Below are positions 30,450 to 63,200 of a DNA stretch of 64,000 bases, piece by piece. The DNA is taken from contig JACDQD010000102.1 of assembly GCA_019843655.1 (NCBI GenBank), positions 8,875,501-8,939,500 on the forward strand, given 5' to 3'. This stretch comes from Lethocerus indicus (taxonomy: Eukaryota > Arthropoda > Insecta > Hemiptera > Belostomatidae). The notes beneath the pieces were generated by a model. It did not search any database, was not told the DNA's origin, and was given only the letters and a program-made list of their open reading frames with translations. The first letter of the stretch is position 1; every line of letters begins with the position of its first letter. Both the position numbers and the translations under genes were made by a program.

Positions 30450-31075
30450 TTATTTATTTAAACATTTCCTTTTCATCCTAAACATCCTTTTCAGGCGTCT
30501 GCAAGGAACGTTTGGGATGTCGGGAGATAGTAGGGTTTGGACTAGTGGATTAGGGTGATGATGGAGTCGTGAGTGGAAATTGCTGTATCGTTGTATGGCG
30601 AGGTCACGGACAAACGGGACATTAAGATCTGTGCGTAGGGTAAGGTTGGAGACATAATAGGGTGCATCGATTATTCTCCTTAATATTTTTGACTGTAAGG
30701 TTTGGATTTTGTGGATATTTCTCGGTTTGGCCAAACCCCACAGTTCGAGTCCGTATGTCCAGATCGGTTTAAGTATAGTGTTGTACAATAATAATTTGTT
30801 GTTTAAGCTTAATTTTGATCTATTGTCTAGTATTCTATGTAGTAACTTGTATCGTCTGTTAAATTCCAGTCTTTTTAGTTTTATGTGTGGATTCCATGTC
30901 CGTCTTTTGTCTATATAGAGGCCCAGGTATTTTACCTTATCCGCCGTGGGTAGGGGTGTTTCGAAATAGTTTTCTAATTTTCGGACTGGAATTTCATTCG
31001 TATTTTATGTCGTGTGTCTCTACTAAATAGAAAATGTCGACAATTCAGTCTTTTTTAAAATGGAGCTGGTTTTCT
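30450..31075 (-). pseudogene. Decayed jockey-like non-LTR retrotransposon, C-terminal reverse transcriptase fragment
   Basis: The frame reads through DKVKYLGLYIDKRRTWNPHI, then LLYNTILKPIWTYGLELWG and IDAPYYVSNLTLRTDL, ending at a stop near 30450. These are hallmark strings of the reverse-transcriptase C-terminal region of jockey-clade LINEs. Further upstream the same frame (KKTELSTFSI, RHTT) is broken by three in-frame stops. An A-rich stretch follows the stop on the minus strand, consistent with a LINE 3' end. The 5' part, including the catalytic core, is absent, so it is a dead 5'-truncated copy. Confidence 0.8.
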
Positions 31076-46700: not shown

Positions 46701-49700
46701 CTGTTGTTATCTGTACTATCAAAATACTGTAAGCAATCCAATCCTTCTGTCACATGATGCAATGCCATTTTGCACCTTTCTTCCAAAGTACCAACTAAAG
46801 GAGGTGGATGAATGTATTTATCTGTTTAAAAAATTGAAAGTTAATTGACAATAAACTCAATTATACTTAACGAAATTAATTCAAACTTTAATTCAAAGTT
46901 AACTTGGATTTAACTGAAATCCAATATAAATGTTGTTAATTTATTATCAAAAGATGGGGAAATTGTTGTAGGACAGCAAAACCAGTAAGTAGAAGGTATT
47001 TTAGTTTCAGTTAAAAACTATGGTTTAAAATACTAGACTCAGATACATCTAAAATGCAGCAGTGAAAACCTCAAACACCTGTGACAGACTGGTGTGTAGA
47101 AATACACAGATCTGTAACCGGAACAGAATGGCTCATCATTGACTCCTCTTCTTCTTCATCTTCCGTAGAATCTTCTGTCAGAGGTTCATCCAGCAGTTGT
47201 GGAGACAGAGGATCAGTATCCAAAGGGACATAGAGGTCAGAAAGCATGTAATGGGCAGATGTCACTATCTGAAACAATGACACAATTATTTTTTGGTATA
47301 GATTTCAGGAGAGGTAAATTACAGTTCCAAAACCATCCTACAGAGTGAGGTGCAGTCTCGCCTTACCTTACTTATACCTCCTCACTTTTGAACTGAAACA
47401 AAACCCAAACTGATCAAATTATAAGGTAATATAACAAATAAGGAGGGAGGATTACAACAAATTTATATAGACTGATATAGTCTCTCCTTACTTGTACACA
47501 TGAAGCATTTTAATAAAAATATTCGTAATCACAGTTTCCCCCAATATATTAAATATTATAATATAATAAATTTCAACCTATTAATTAGTGTAATTTTTTT
47601 AACTAGGTATAAAAACCCACTGGGTATCAAGCGTAAGGGCTGAAGCCACCAACTTCCACCAAATATTTTACTTCAAAACAAATAAATATAGCCATTCTAT
47701 GGTTGATTTCCCCACAATTAAACAGATTATATCAATCAGAATATTATCCATCTAAATAAATGAGCAACTTCAATGTTCTCTTGATAGTCTAAAAGAAAAT
47801 TTAATTTTTGAGAAATGTACTAAAATTGTTATGTGTGAACATTCAATAGATATTTCAAAGGCAATCTTCTCTTCCAGAACTGATTTATACAGTAAATTTT
47901 GCTTACTTGTGATATTTATACTTGACAATAACTTTTATGTTAGCCATAAATGCTTGTCACTGCATAAATACAAAGAGAACATTGTTCATAAATCAAAAAG
48001 TAGGTTAGTAGATTAAGTAGTTAGATGATAAGATACCTGAGGATACTTCTCTTTTGGCAATAGTGATAGAGAATTTTTTAGCAGCATTCGAATGGTTCCT
48101 GGCTGTGTATTGGATCCATTTTTTGATTGTTTCATATTCCTTGCCACCCTATAGAGAAGCATACCAACTGGAACTGTAAATGGATTTTGTCCTTTATCAA
48201 CCAAAGTGTCCGAGCATAAAGAACTGAGATCATAAAGTTTTACTACATCATCATCTCTGCCTGAAAATAAAGGAATTATATAATTAATTTATCTCAAGTT
48301 AATCTCAAGGAATATTTTCTTTTTTTCATAAAATAACATGTTAATTAAAATTTATAACAAAAACATTCAGTCCCCCACAAAGATTTGAACTCAGGTTGAC
48401 ACATTGGCATCCCTCTTAAACTACAAACTACAACCAGAATTCAAATCTGAGTCATAAGCTACCAGAAATTGGGATGCAGAATAGCTTATTGGTTATAGAC
48501 GGTGTTCACCTATCGACCCACATTCAAATCACAGGGTCAAACTGAACTTTCCTGCATATTTTGATGAATTAAATGAGACTGAAACTAATATACTGACTAG
48601 AAAACATCTTAGTTTTATAATTCAATCTGGTAAGATATTTTCCACTGCAGATATTTTAATTTATAAAGAAATTAACAACTCAAGATGCATTTAACTCAAT
48701 TATTAACTGGTGAAATACAAAATTAATCCCAATTCCAATAATTTGCACTTACATATAATGCATTATAGGAAACAAATTTAAAGCTAAATACCTTTAAAAA
48801 GCCAATAAGTGTGACCAGCTTTGGTAGCATTAGATTTTAAGAAAGACAATATATTCTGTGCCACATCACGTATTAGTTTTGGTGAAAACTTTGCATCAGG
48901 TAGATGTGGTAGGTCTTCTGTTTTGATGAGTTCATACTTCTGAACTATGCCATCCAAGTGGTAGCACATCACCACCTCAGGAACATTAGACATTAGATTG
49001 TCCAACCAATAGTCAATTCCAGTTAGAACACTTATTGGTTTAGCAACATCCCTTAAGAATAAATGCAAAATAAGAAATGGAAAGGAAGCAAACTTAATAG
49101 CAGCAATAACAACATAAAAATTCAAGATTCATAGTAAACCCAATAAAAGTGAATGCTCAGTCGCCTCTTAAAGTGGGAAGTAAACAATATATCACCAAAT
49201 AACATATTAAATTATGTTAATAGCCAAAGAAGCTCATATGCTAATAAAAATATAGAATATCAATAGTAACATATACATTGAAATGTTAGTAATCCATAAT
49301 AAAATCTTAGCTTAATACCTTAGTCTCAAACTGATGCAGGGGTGTGTTGAACCACCAAAAATTGGCATATCGGTTCCTAGAAGCATTTGTATATCTTCAA
49401 ATGTCCAGACAACATTTCTTGTAAATTTGTGGTCATGTGAAGAGTCTGGTATGCCCTCTTCAAATCTTGGTTCTGGCAGTGGATGTTCACACTAGCCAAA
49501 AAAACTTAATGATAATTATTACCAGTAGTAATAGTTGTAGAAACCTTACTATAATACGTATAATTAAAACATTTAAAAAACAAAACACATAACAAGCATA
49601 TACAAAGCAATGCACTTTGCAATGTTTTTTAATCTTCATTTATACAGCACAATGAGTCACAAAGGCTGTTATGCACTGACATTTGAAATGTCCTGTGAAA

Positions 49701-54294: not shown

Positions 54295-57200
54295 ATGAGC
54301 AGTCGTGTGATAGTGGTTGGTGCTGGAATAGCTGGGATAGCTGCAGCTGCTCGCCTTATTGAAAATGGCATAACCAACATCACCATCCTGGAGGCTGAAA
54401 ACCGGTTGGGAGGCCGTGTCCATACAGTGCCTTTTGGTAATTAATGTTTTTGACCACAGACTCTAATGTCTACTCGTATTCTAAATGTAATGCTAAAAGA
54501 AATTGTTTTCACGTTCGAATAATGAAAATGTTCCTGTGTAAAAACTCAGTGTGGCATAAACATTGATCAATGTTACTTGCCTTAATGGGCATTATTTGTA
54601 TTTTTTAAGTGTTTCATCATTTGGGTAAAGTGAAATCATGAAAAAAACTTATTTTTTGTAGCAGGTATGTTCCGTAACTTATCAACTCAATGCTAGAGGC
54701 TTTTTTCCTCAAAACAAATGAAATTGGTTTGTTAAAAACTAATATAATGCTCAGGAACTTTTGCAAAAATTCCTTAAAATTATTTTGAGATATATGAGAA
54801 TTTTAATATCTGTGGCAGCTGTAAAAATCAAAATTAAAAAAGATTGTTCAGTTTTATTTGCCACATGAAGTGAGGTCTATAAATATTGTGTCCAGGTGAG
54901 ACTTGTGTTGACTTGGGAGCACACTGGGTACATGGAGAGAAAGGCAACAGAGTATTTGAAATGGCCAATCCAATGGGGCTTGTGGAGGCATCACGTGACT
55001 TGGAGAATATTCAGTTTGTGATGTCCGATCACTCAAGTGTGGCAACAGATGTTGGGCTTCGCCTATTTGAAAGGTGTGCCATGGTTTTAGATGATGAATC
55101 ATCCCTAAGAAGTTTTGAAGGCTCTGTTGCTGATTATCTCAAAGTGAGGTGAGTTTTCCACAACCTATCTGTTTATAATCATTGTTCACTCATCCCTGTT
55201 TATTTATAACAATGTTATTTTTGAAAACTATTTTATTGCCAGTACTGGAAAATATTCATATCTATTCTCTAGTAATCTAAGAGTTCAGAGCTTATCTTAG
55301 GAATATCCTTGCAAATGACCTTATTTGTCATATTTCTTTAAAACATATTTTTCATGCATTCCATAAATCAGTAAAATTCGCAGTATTTTTATTGTTGTGC
55401 TTATGTCTATTATGAACATTGAAGACACAGGTTTCTCGTCACTAGTCTGAGCAGACAATATATTGGCTTTTGAGGTATCTGGAGTAGGTTGGAGTTTGTA
55501 AAATCAACCACTGGTAATCTTGGCTTGAATGTGCAAAACCCAAGTTGCTACTAAAAGTTAGGATTTCATTTCTTTGTCTAACTTAGAGATAGCTTACTTA
55601 ATATGTAACAACACAAAAGAAATAATAAGCACATCGCGAGATGTTGCATCTCATTGAGCTATACAAATGAAGAGAACAGTAATAAGGACATTTCACATAA
55701 CTTCAAAATGGAAAAATCTTATTTTCTTCACAGGAACAAATTTTTGTAAGAAATTGTTCATTCTAATATTATTTAATAGTATTTATATAATATGTAATAA
55801 TAATACAATAATTTGTAAATATCCACCTTGAATAAATCATTATGATTTTAGTGTTATATTTATCATTGACATTAATATAATTAAATTATATTATTATTTT
55901 ATATTAATTGAGATTAAACATTCTAATAAAGGACTGTTATATCCAAGAAATAAAATAAACAATACAATTTCATTGCTGTATGTAGATATGTAATTTATAT
56001 TTGGACAAAGAGACAGGTTGTGCTGAAAAGCTGTTGTTTCTCTTTTTTCTTTTGAATTGTCAGTGTTCTCTTTGGTCATGAGGCCACCTTTTTTCCTTAT
56101 ATTAGCTCAGAGATGAAATCCCATGAAATGTGCTATGTTCCTCAGTTCCCCTTGACTCATTAAGTTCATTTTTAGGGATATAATTAAGTACATCAAACTT
56201 CACAGTATTAGTTCAGACTAGAGTTTACACATTACTTCTCTATGTCGATAGGTCAGTTATGCAATGAATAATATTTTTTTATTTATTCTGAAGATTAATT
56301 TTTCACCATAAACATTTTATTTAATTTGTGCGATAAATTTATTTAAAAAATATGATTTATCATAATATTTATGTTTTCTAATTATGTACATTTATATATA
56401 ATTAATTTAAAAAATTATAGAAAATTTGAAGACAGAAACAAAATTATATGTTTTTGACACAATCACACTGACATAATTGACACCACTTAATTTGTACATA
56501 ACAGAAATGAAAGAACAAAATGAATAACTATGAAACAAATCAGAAAGGGGAAAAGGGTTAAAAAATAACACAAATTATTTTAAAAAATGACAATAAAATA
56601 GGGAAAAATTAAATAGTACAAACTATCTATCACATAGTTTATCCGTATACAAACTTTATGCATAACAATGAAATATTTACTTGTAACCAGTGCTGATTAT
56701 AACATACTTTAAATAAATATATCAAGGCAATGAGAAAAAATTAATAACATGCATCTTGTGACCCAGAGGAAGATATAGATACTATCGGTCAAGAGTTAGA
56801 ATGCAATACTTTCTGAAAGTATTTATTGTTCAACATGATGTTTCATTTTTAGTTCTGGTTATCAGCAATTACTGGTTATTTCTGGTTACTCATGTAATAC
56901 TTTGTTGGACAGTTGTCAATTCAACATAGAACAGTTTTTAGTGATACAATAAATTGACCAATATTTAATAAACAATGTTGTTCTAAGAAGAATTTAAAGG
57001 CCATATTAAAAAATTGTCTCTATTAGCACTCCTCAAAGATGTGTACGTTTACGGCTCGATATTATCCTCTGGGCCAAATCTTCAATTTCACTGGCCTTAA
57101 AGAATATCGAAAGAACAAGATCTATTTTCATGTGCCGATGAGATAATACGGTCTTGTACTGTTCATCAGGGATGACACATCTGATTTTGTCATTACGACA

Positions 57201-60200
57201 ACTATTGGAAACATAATATTTGGTCATAAGATTGTGTATGAGTTGCACATACATTGAATCTACACAAGTGAAACTCTGTTCAAGCATATTTGGCCGATCC
57301 CTAAGACTGTCCAAATACCCTGGCGTCACAATTGGTACAATGAAATCCATCTGTGGGCAAAAAAATAGGAAAAAACATTAATATAATGGAAAAATACATA
57401 ATGCGAAGTAATGCATGAATAGGCAGTATGAATTTGATGTCAACATTAGAAAATATTTAAGTAGCAAATACAAAATTGTTTGTCTTAACACACATTTAAA
57501 AATTAAATTGCATAAATTATTGAATTATAGCATAGGGTTTGAAGACAGACTGGTTTTAATTTGAATACCCTTACTATAATATTATATTTAACATTTTGTA
57601 TTTAAACAAATTATTGGTCGCTCTCTAGATATAGATGGTGCATTAAAGTGAATTAAAATTACCATATATGGATTAAACCTCTGAAAGATAACAGCTGTAA
57701 CTGTTGATTGCAACACATAATTCTAAAGGTTTAAAAATCATTAACTTTTAGTATCATAACAAACAACTCACTTTATGAAAAGCATGCATGATAAATTTTT
57801 CTGGATTGCTATTGACTTTGCTCTCAAGATCATCAAGGATGAGAACTCCGATGGGGAGATGATTACCTCTATGTTTCCTAAATACTTTAGCCACATGCCT
57901 TGCTGTAGATTCACCATCTTTTGCAAATGTGACCATCACCCTTTTGCTGCAGACACTGCTCTGAAATTGTATTTTGTATAATTAAATTTGGATGTAAAAG
58001 TAAATGATTAATTATAACCATAACATGTATAGATTTTGCAAATTTAATAACATTTTCACTGTACTTTCAAGCTTTCAGCTAAATGAGGTAAATTTGAACA
58101 ATGATGACGTATCAAAGAGAAAAGTTTGATAGAAAAATTTGTTATTAAGTATATAAAAATATCACTATAATTAAACAGGCTTAACAGGCCTTACTAAAAC
58201 ATTTTAAACTCTATTAGTTTAACATGGCTACAAAATGAATACACTTAAATTATAGTGTCTTGTAAACAAACAAATAATTAAGTTAAAATAGACCCTGTGA
58301 AATATTAGTTCAACAATCTTCAGTTCTTAATTGTTTACAATTTATTTACTTTGATTAATAAAAGTTTAACTTATTTCATATTTCAAGAATTGCACATTAT
58401 TGATTACTAGGATTATAATACGTAAGCAGAAATTTGGAAGTGCTTATAATATAATAATGAAACAAATAAAGTGTCCTTTAACATTATTATGTAATATTTG
58501 GCACTCAATCAGGTGGATTGAAAATGTTTGCATTTTCTCTGTAATCTAAATGTAATCTTAAAATGTTAATATTAACATTTTAAATAAAAATTACACCTAC
58601 CAAATATTTAAATCATCTAGTAAAATGAGACCCCTCTGCTATATAATGCAAAACAAACCAAATACAATGTCAGAATAAAGGAATTTAAATCCATACTTTT
58701 AAAAATTCCAAACAACAGGTAGAACATAATTAAAAATATGCATGTATTAAATTAAATGGAACATTAAGGACGGCCATATGCCAAAGTCAGTCAATTCCCT
58801 ACCATATTGTACACACTGCCCCCTAACATGCAAACCTGTGCACATTATTTTATTAGATTTACACAGTTTCAAATTTCAATATTATTGAATGTAGTATTGA
58901 ATGTAATTTCAAATGATTGAAACTTATCTAGTTAATTAGTTTTCTCTTGACAGAATGAAATTTAGGTTATACCATTTGGTTTATTTACCTTTCTACTTCG
59001 ATTGGGTGCTACAATGCAACTACTTCTTTGTAATTCTGATTCTTCCCGTCTGTTTTCTTCACCCTGCAAGTTATTTGTGTGAGTCTCAGTCGGTGGTGCC
59101 AAGACAACTTCAATGCCCCCACCACTCATTTTCCTCCTATCAGTCATCAATTCTTGTAGGGTTATAGGCAACTGATACCTTAGGTGGTGGTGACCTTCTG
59201 GTCTCATAATTATGGAGTCCTCAATGTAGCTAGATTGTTGTTGGTTTCCTTCACAAAATATTAGTGAAAATATTATACAATCAGAGTATTTCAGAGGATG
59301 TGTTAAATATATATTTCAGTAATATTGTCCTGTTTACAGAATAAATTCAGTTCATTGAATGAATATACCATCTGAAAAATTATAATTCTTTCTAGTTTTG
59401 CTTAAACCAATGCTTGCTATCACTTTTTTATAGTAATAAAAATGAAATGAATGTATTACAGATTCAATATTATTTATAAATCAACGTAATTAACCATTAA
59501 ATCTCAGTATTAATTACAAAAGAACACAGAAAATATAATCGGTTTATATATCATAGGTGATCTCAGCATATATTCTTTAATAGGACTGAATTATTGTATA
59601 CTATATAATAACTAAACAGTAATAAAAATAGCTGCATGTCTATGATGTTTGAATAGTATTTTACTAAAACATAATATATTATCAGATTTATTGATCCATA
59701 GAGTTTGAAATGATAATAAATTTCATAATCACATTAGAACCACAGATTAAAAACAATCAATTCAAAAAGTGTAGAGTGCTGATTAAAATACAAGAATGAT
59801 TGTTTTGTTTTTAAGAATTATTATTTCAATTAGAAATATCTGATCAAAATCAGCTGTTAAATTTAAACACACAATGGCAAAAGTTACCAGTGGGTTGTAT
59901 AAGCAATGTAAAAAAAAATTAAATTTTTAAAAAACCTAACTTCATCTGCAGTTTCTTTAAGACAGAACTATTATCATTACATTATAAAAACAAATTCAAC
60001 CAACCATCTGATAAGGAACTATATCCACTGTCAATGTTTTCTGATCTCCTTGCATTTTCTCTCTTTGCGACTTCCACCAAACCTTAAGGCAAAAACAATA
60101 ATAAAAAAATTTCTTATTTTATTACAAACAATGCAATATACTATTATAAGAATATAACTTACTGAGTACAGGAGTTTTAATTGAAGTCAAAATATCATAT

Positions 60201-63200
60201 CTCTTCATGTCATAAACAACTTGGACTAGTGTATCCAGCGTTGATTCCCGTTTTTGAGCAAATGTTTTGAGGGTTATTTCTGTACTGTCCTCATGCTTGT
60301 AGTTTTCTATACACTGTAAATGCATAATAATTCTAATATTTATAATTAAAAATGCCCAAGGTTGTTTTTATTTTTCAATGGAAATATTAATAAGGTGCAC
60401 CCATTATCAAAGTTACAGTAAAAATGTTTTTAAAACAAAGTTGAAATCAACTGGCTACTTTAACATTATATATCATTACAATGATATATTTCAGCACAAA
60501 AATAAAACTACATTTTCTTAAAATTTAAGCATGACATGCTCTAAATTACATCCTGCATAACTGCATTATCGCCAATACCAGTCCACTTGAAAAGTTCCAA
60601 AGGTCACAAATACATTTAAAGTAACCTCCTTAGATAACTTTCAATAGCATAGTTACTTCAAATTTTCTATAAGGAAAATAGGGATTTTCTATGTATAAGG
60701 AATTTTTGGGTAACTAGTGAACAAGCAGATCTATATTAAATGTATTAATTCATGAACTAAGGCAGTATGCATATACAAATCAAAACTAACATTGGAGATT
60801 GTGTTATGTAAATATGAAATCAAGGCAAAATTGAAAACGCAAAACTAACTGAATTGTATACAAAACTGACCCCTCTCTGGTGAAAAGTGAGTCCCAGGGA
60901 ATCGGCGAGATCTTTCCAGGAGACATATTGGATACCCTCGGGAGTGGATGACATGATCGTGCAAAAGGCCTTAAGGGCAGTCCTCCCTTCGGGATGGAAT
61001 AAATAGGAGGCGTGAACTCCCTTGGTGGCGGACACCAGTTGCTGGTATAGAAGTGGGTAATCACCCTTTTCTGAGAGTACCGTATTCCGGATCAGTTCCA
61101 GTTCCGGGTTTCTGGTCGGCTTCATTTTAGAGGCCTAAGTCACCAGAGGTTCTTCTCTGAGACCACAGAAACAGCACAGTCGTTCTGACAAACTCGCGCA
61201 CTTTCCTCCCGTCGATTCTCCGAATACTGAGTTACGTCACTCCTATTGTTCGTATTGTCGGCCTTTATCTAGTTGAGCACTCGACAACGCGCAAATCTCA
61301 CTCAGTGTGGACGCCTTGAGAACTAACACTCGGTAGCTAGCACTGCCAACTAGTTCTAGCGCTATCTCAGAAGTTATATTTTCGAATTTCCATGTTACAA
61401 CAAATTGAATCGCTTTCAAGTGCATATCGGACAGCAAAATTGAGCTATAAAAATGAAGAGAAAAAATACTTTTTATATCGCTGTAATACTTGCCATATTT
61501 AATAAGTATGACACGCCAGATGGGAATATTTCAGACAATTAGTGAAGAAGTCCCAGAAGCATACTGGGTATGTTTTATTAATCTTTTGACTAGGGAAACA
61601 TATTTCAAATACCTCTGGCAGAGAAAAACTGAATGAAGTAGATAATATATTACATGATAAGGCGATTAAGAAACTTTCATACAGGTGTTCATGTTTCCTA
61701 AAAGCATTTAGCAAACTTTTAGTTCACAAATTGGCCATCATACATTTACCCCTTAATAACACTTTAAAATAAGGAAAAAACGTACATTATTTTTATGTTA
61801 TGGTAAATTTTTCAGATATGATGAATTGGTTCAAGATTTGGGACTGTCTAGTGAGCAAAGTGAGGCTTATTTTGAATGGCTTTCAAGGTTTGAGTGTTCA
61901 ATTGAAGGCTGCAATACACTCAAAGATGCCTCCGCATCTGGATTATCGCATTATAAAAAGTGTGAAGGGGATCCTATACTTTGTTGGAAAAAAGGAGGCT
62001 ACAGTACTCTTATTGATGTGCTTTTGGTAATTTTGTTATTCATGAGTATAGCTCTGTCAAGAGAAACAGGTTCTAAAAGCGCAAATAATGATGAAAATAA
62101 ACTTATTTTGGTATATGTATTTTTTAATAAGTTCCTGTACAGTCATATGACAGGGAAAATTATACTCGCAAATAACTGACACCGTAGCATTTTATTTTTA
62201 GAAAGAATATTGAGTTTTATTGGTATAAATAAGATGCGGCAAATAAGAGGTAAAAAATCCAAGATTAGAGTTGTTTAATAGGATTTTTGGTGCTTTTTGC
62301 AATGGTTTTATTGGCAACACTCTTGCATGAAAAGTTCAGGGATTGATTTTGTGATTCAATACAGCATTTAACCTCTGTGTTTTGAGCTTTAATTCATAGG
62401 TGTTTTGCTTTACCACTTGGTTAAGCTCTCAGACCATCAAATACTGTAGCTTACTTCTGGAACACCCTAGTATCAATTCATATGGTACTTATTATGTTAT
62501 TAATCATGTGATCGTCTTAATTTTTACTGCCCTGATGTTTTAGAAAAAACTCCCCAATTCAAAAGGGCCAGAAATTTTTCTGAATGAAAAAACCCTGTTT
62601 GGTAAAGAAGTCGTGGAAATCGATTGGATGACTATTGATGGTGCCTTGGATGATGAAGGAGGAGTCAAAGTGAGATGTGCTGATGGCACAGAGTACAAAG
62701 CAGCTCATGTGATTGTAACAGTATCCCTTGGAGTTTTGAAAGAGAGATATACATCTCTGTTTAAACCATCATTACCACCACTTAAAATAGACGCAATAAG
62801 GGTAAAAACTATTCCCCAATAACATTGCTTTGCACTATGTTTTGATGGAAATTTTTGATTTTTTATTGTAAAATTTATGCAAATTAATTTATGTAAAGTT
62901 TTATGGTAAAATTATATAAATTGTTTTCAGAGATGTAGTTATAAAAGTATTACAAATAATCTCACTGAACCACAGTGCTTAGCTGCACTTAAGTATAACA
63001 ATCTAAATTGTCCATTGACATTGTTTACCAAAGTGTTTTCCAAAATAATTTCTGTTTAACATTTGAAACACTTACTTCAAATACTTAACATTTCTGTTCT
63101 GATTTGTTAATTTTATTTAAATTAATTTACTTGAATAATGTTATTTCCAAATTATTTATTTCAATATCTAATACATTTCTATATCCAAATTTAATTTTTT

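Follow-up and report, generated by a model that had tools for sequence, protein, structure and literature searches.

Do insects keep an adaptor of the kind that serves IL-17 receptors in other animals, and what would such an adaptor connect? The question is raised by a gene found in 64,000 nucleotides of Lethocerus indicus DNA (assembly GCA_019843655.1, contig JACDQD010000102.1, positions 8,875,501 to 8,939,500 of the forward strand); this whole stretch is called the window. The gene is on the minus strand; it starts with an ATG at 61125, and its stop codon ends at 57033. We put at about 0.75 the probability that its product, called the window protein below, is a soluble adaptor of the Act1/CIKS type in its ancestral form, with a death domain followed by a SEFIR domain. 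IL-17 signalling is commonly described as missing from insects, IL-17 being reported as absent or nearly absent from them (PMC4517768, PMC8353272; these and all later citations draw on parts of the papers' texts). An Act1-type adaptor in two insect orders would offer a handle on a possible IL-17-like pathway, and also on the mode of signalling of the ancestral Act1, which may have worked through the assembly of death domains, as has been proposed for C. elegans.

The N-terminal half of the window protein matches the Pfam family Death (PF00531) with an E value of 1.3e-5 and 25.6 bits, above the cut-off of 22.6, which bears out the death domain-like N-terminus described in an initial annotation of this DNA. 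The same family is matched, at E values up to 10, in 44 of 44 relatives, one of which (P0007) scores 20.5 bits and is under the cut-off. Death domains are also found when the whole-protein profiles A1 and A3 are compared with the PDB. The highest Kyte-Doolittle mean over 19 residues is 0.94 in the window protein, and a mean above 1.6 is reached in only one (P0044, 301 residues) of 52 rows, namely the window protein and its 51 relatives. The window protein thus has no transmembrane-like stretch and is predicted to be soluble.

The C-terminal domain reads as nearer to SEFIR than to TIR, judging from the fold of the relatives' models and from a profile that matches Act1. Ranked by Z, the structure nearest to each of two AlphaFold models of relatives is the SEFIR domain of human Act1 (Z 16.8 and 15.8). 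When a profile of the C-terminal domain is compared with the PDB sequences, Act1 (TRAF3IP2) ranks first, weakly, at an E value of 0.02. Of the whole-protein profiles, A3 finds an Act1 chain at an E value of 0.27 and A1 finds none; phmmer with the whole window protein returned nothing from the PDB at E values up to 10. Two results weigh against an Act1-type domain. The window protein, nine relatives and 14 C-terminal domains give no match to the Pfam SEFIR family (PF08357) at E values of 10 or less, in searches where the HMMER filters remove most matches above about 0.1. The family is also absent among 25 of the 28 Pfam families listed for 44 relatives, and an NCBIfam scan gave no match in the four relatives scanned. 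The second result comes from Foldseek, where the highest rows for the moth-led model belong to chains of the assembly other than Act1. These are probably receptor chains, and confidence in the Act1-type reading was therefore lowered from 0.8 to 0.75. The SEFIR pattern proposed in the initial annotation thus has no counterpart in a Pfam match, but Act1 comes first by Z in the comparison of folds and again among the PDB sequences ranked by profile, and this is taken to outweigh the formal failure of the Pfam check.

Three rounds of iterated protein search yielded 51 distinct relatives of the window protein, the third round adding seven rows that include four moths or butterflies by name. The named true bugs are five: Nezara, Rhodnius, Triatoma, Cimex and Rhynocoris. 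Moths and butterflies, by the names shown, number 38. The search required shared words of five residues and was limited in length, so that absence from other insect orders is not implied. A tree was built from 18 rows, namely the window protein and 17 of its 51 relatives; in it the window protein groups with P0001 to P0007 and P0010 (support 100/100). The moth side is separate from this group, within which the branching is poorly ordered and P0007 has a long branch. Where database labels are shown, they read "uncharacterized", "hypothetical", "unnamed" or "death domain-containing"; two others, "40s ribosomal protein s12" and "Tumor necrosis factor receptor su...", look wrong, and none, as far as it is displayed, mentions SEFIR, Act1 or CIKS. 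Among the papers listed from the open-licence PMC literature, titles and openings of abstracts pointed to none that deals with an insect Act1/CIKS. The predicted Act1-type adaptor is conserved in true bugs and moths. What is new is this family of 51 relatives, none of them labelled Act1, which has been overlooked by standard annotation in a class reported to be without IL-17, together with the degron-like DSGxxS motif described below. The design that joins a death domain to a SEFIR domain is itself already known from other animals.

By analogy with these animals, the action of the adaptor may be pictured as follows. Its SEFIR domain would dock on a SEFIR-bearing receptor, a relative of the IL-17 receptor. 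Clustering of the receptor would then cause the adaptor to oligomerise, and its death domain would recruit death-domain kinases of the Pelle/IRAK type, along with MALT1 where this exists, in a manner similar to MyD88. Where a DSGxxS motif is kept, its phosphorylation followed by destruction through SCF-betaTrCP/Slimb could switch the signal off. The initial annotation had already put forward a MyD88-like recruitment of death-domain partners; the idea is sound but not new, because it has been published for C. elegans ACTL-1 and for non-amniote Act1 (PMC7190641). If true for insects, it would add a second MyD88-like route into Pelle, including in the blood-feeding bugs Rhodnius and Cimex.

The DSGxxS motif is present in 41 of the 52 proteins, mostly those of moths, against an expectation of 0.0037 per shuffled sequence, the rows being related by descent and not independent. 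In the window protein it reads DSGYSS (residues 153-158) and lies between the two domains; Triatoma and two moths read DSGYHS, and in alignment A1 the motifs of all four fall in a single column. The Rhodnius protein reads DGGYHS at this site. Among the nine rows on the true-bug side, only the window protein and Triatoma carry the motif, as compared with 39 of the 43 other rows. DSGxxST is described as the phosphodegron of FBXW1A/FBXW11 (beta-TrCP), and Act1 is cited as a target of that ligase (PMC11047997). By this analogy, DSGxxS is a candidate beta-TrCP/Slimb phosphodegron. The TRAF2-type pattern [PSAT]x[QE]E also occurs in 41 of 52 rows, being so loose and short that it does not inform. The pattern PxExx[FYWDE], a simple TRAF6-binding consensus, occurs in none of the 52.

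That this animal retains an IL-17-like or divergent innate pathway was supposed in the initial annotation. It is possible, and can be proposed only tentatively, that a working pathway of the IL-17 type persists in true bugs and moths, with parts that have diverged below the reach of standard domain models. In such a pathway a SEFIR receptor would signal through the death domain-SEFIR adaptor directly to Pelle, by assembly of death domains and without TRAF6 docking. A conserved Slimb-type phosphodegron between the adaptor's two domains would be the off-switch in moths and also in certain bugs, Lethocerus among them. The genome of the animal was searched for other parts. The family MALT1_Ig (PF18703) gave two matches, both sub-threshold, and no paracaspase was seen by eye in the flanking frames of at least 50 codons on the matching strand. 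One of the two is on the contig that carries the adaptor gene, among frames that resemble UBR4. Death (PF00531) gave 14 matches at eight loci, and neither Pelle nor MyD88 was picked out at the five loci inspected, the flanks of which resemble ankyrin, UNC5 and another gene of the ankyrin-repeat type. In the literature, arthropods are credited with type 1 paracaspases for which no activators are known (PMC5978004).

A different history is that the same adaptor was rewired in insects, the IL-17 ligand having been lost, so that the SEFIR domain serves some other receptor or only self-assembles. We regard this as unlikely, and the estimate is not exclusive of the Act1-type reading, because the identity of the protein is common to both. 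The reported absence of IL-17 from three insects surveyed (PMC4517768) is in line with such a loss, as is the failure of IL17 (PF06083), SEFIR (PF08357) and Ig_ILCR1 (PF23608) to match anything in the Lethocerus genome. These searches, however, cannot show absence, because they were run exon by exon and the control genomes were equally without a match. Loss of the ligand is further opposed by the one IL-17-domain sequence reported in Drosophila, with none in Apis (PMC8353272), and by the decapod crustaceans, in which a hormone with an IL-17 domain and a SEFIR receptor are both retained (PMC10604874).

A diverged MyD88-like adaptor of the Toll pathway, in which the death domain is followed by an unusual TIR domain, is improbable. 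The death domain would suit it, and TIR_2 is weakly matched in two of the 14 C-terminal domains. No TIR match at E values up to 10 is found, however, in the full-length window protein or in nine relatives, and TIR is absent among 25 of the 28 families listed for the 44 relatives. The best TIR domains reach Z values of 13.7 and 13.3 in the two AlphaFold models, behind Act1 by 3.1 and 2.5 units. The profile of the C-terminal domain, which places Act1 first in the PDB, retrieves no TIR chain up to an E value of 10. Moreover, homologues of MyD88 and Tube have been reported in triatomines (PMC5778769), two of which (P0003, P0004) have the adaptor, MyD88 there presumably being a separate gene. The choice of the Act1/CIKS type over MyD88 made in the initial annotation is thus supported.

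The Act1-type reading presupposes that the six exons, all on the minus strand, form one gene. Exon 1 (60871..61125) starts with the ATG and encodes residues 1-85, which comprise N-terminal helices and the start of the death domain. Exon 2 (60163..60313) extends from residue 86 to the start of residue 136 and holds the remainder of the Pfam death-domain match (69-132). Exon 3 (60005..60082) encodes about residues 136-162 with the DSGYSS motif; it is the weakest exon by homology, and its donor, GTTGGT, is unusual. Exon 4 (58989..59248) continues the linker up to residue 248, in a region that is partly of low confidence in the model of P0001. The SEFIR-like domain is split between exon 5 (57772..57960, residues 249-311, VMVTFAKDG ... 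NPEKFI), which encodes its first half, and exon 6 (57033..57350, residues 312-416 and the stop codon), which encodes its second. The five introns all have GT-AG borders, the reading frame is unbroken, and the predicted product has 416 residues; the coordinates, exon count and length given earlier for this gene proved exact.

A control independent of the joins made in that annotation used profile hidden Markov models built from relatives only, the window protein being excluded. They were compared with all stop-to-stop frames of 15 residues or longer that the window contains, 2,813 in number. The profile built on 44 relatives matched exons 6, 5, 2 and 1, in order, with E values of 4.6e-30, 5.9e-20, 4.5e-17 and 2.5e-13. 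It did not reach exons 3 and 4, and its next match (E 0.07) is elsewhere in the window. With a profile of the eight true-bug-side rows, exon 4 is gained at 3.5e-5, so that five exons are recovered at that E value or better. Exon 3 appears in its correct place and order at 0.77 and is outranked by a chance match at 0.38. Its support is therefore drawn from the splice sites, the phase and the alignment. The identities of the individual exons to the relatives are consistent with this recovery. The short, weakly conserved exon 3 and its odd donor might hint that separate frames have been joined by chance or that the gene has decayed into a pseudogene, but this is hardly credible in view of the unbroken GT-AG frame across six exons, the recovery of exons in order by profiles of relatives, the 39-45% identity to P0001-P0006 in whole-length alignment, and the relatives P0002, P0007 and P0010, each of which has the entire protein on a contig no longer than 2.2-2.5 kb, as would be expected of transcripts.

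The adaptor gene is nested in a 6.7-kb intron (55149..61815, plus strand) of a polyamine-oxidase-like gene that is read in the opposite direction. Three exons of the host gene (54295-54436, 54896-55148 and 61816-62026, plus strand) join in phase and match the Pfam family Amino_oxidase with an E value of 1.9e-19; further coding stretches are seen by eye from about 62545 on. A search of the genome with P0005 found the adaptor gene on its contig (C4) and again on contig C99 (14.85 Mb), with no third place among eight candidates scored. The two contigs are inverted relative to each other and 100% identical at all sampled places over a span of 1.08 Mb. The second copy is accordingly rejected as a paralogue, the same DNA being apparently listed twice in the assembly. 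Elsewhere in the window, on the minus strand, an exon of an EDRF1 gene lies at 48785-49128 (EDRF1_N, E 1.7e-48), and more frames resembling this gene are seen by eye from about 40.9 to 50.1 kb. A minus-strand frame of 184 codons at 30450-31004 resembles, by eye, the reverse-transcriptase end of a non-LTR (long terminal repeat) retrotransposon, with no Pfam match at E values up to 1.

The closest known counterparts of the insect protein include proteins from outside the amniotes. In C. elegans, ACTL-1 has a published death domain-SEFIR architecture and forms a complex with IRAK, MALT-1 and NFKI-1; the death domain has been lost from amniote Act1 and is present in most other lineages, and the combination has been likened to MyD88 (PMC7190641). 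The order of the domains is the same in the insect protein, as compared by description and not by sequence, and the role proposed here, that of an adaptor acting in the cytosol and upstream of death-domain partners of the IRAK/Pelle type, would be the same too, whereas the insect C-terminal domain falls under the level of Pfam SEFIR detection. With human Act1 the window protein shares the C-terminal SEFIR fold, as suggested by Z and by the PDB profile. Amniote Act1, in contrast, has TRAF-binding sites and no death domain (PMC7190641, PMC6610456), and the insect family is devoid of PxExx[FYWDE] in all 52 proteins. MyD88 resembles the window protein in its death domain and differs in the C-terminal domain, which in the insect protein appears nearer to SEFIR and has no Pfam TIR match. 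Finally, a placozoan protein of the same two-domain composition, again compared by description rather than by sequence, is reported to resemble CIKS as well as MyD88 (PMC6321704).
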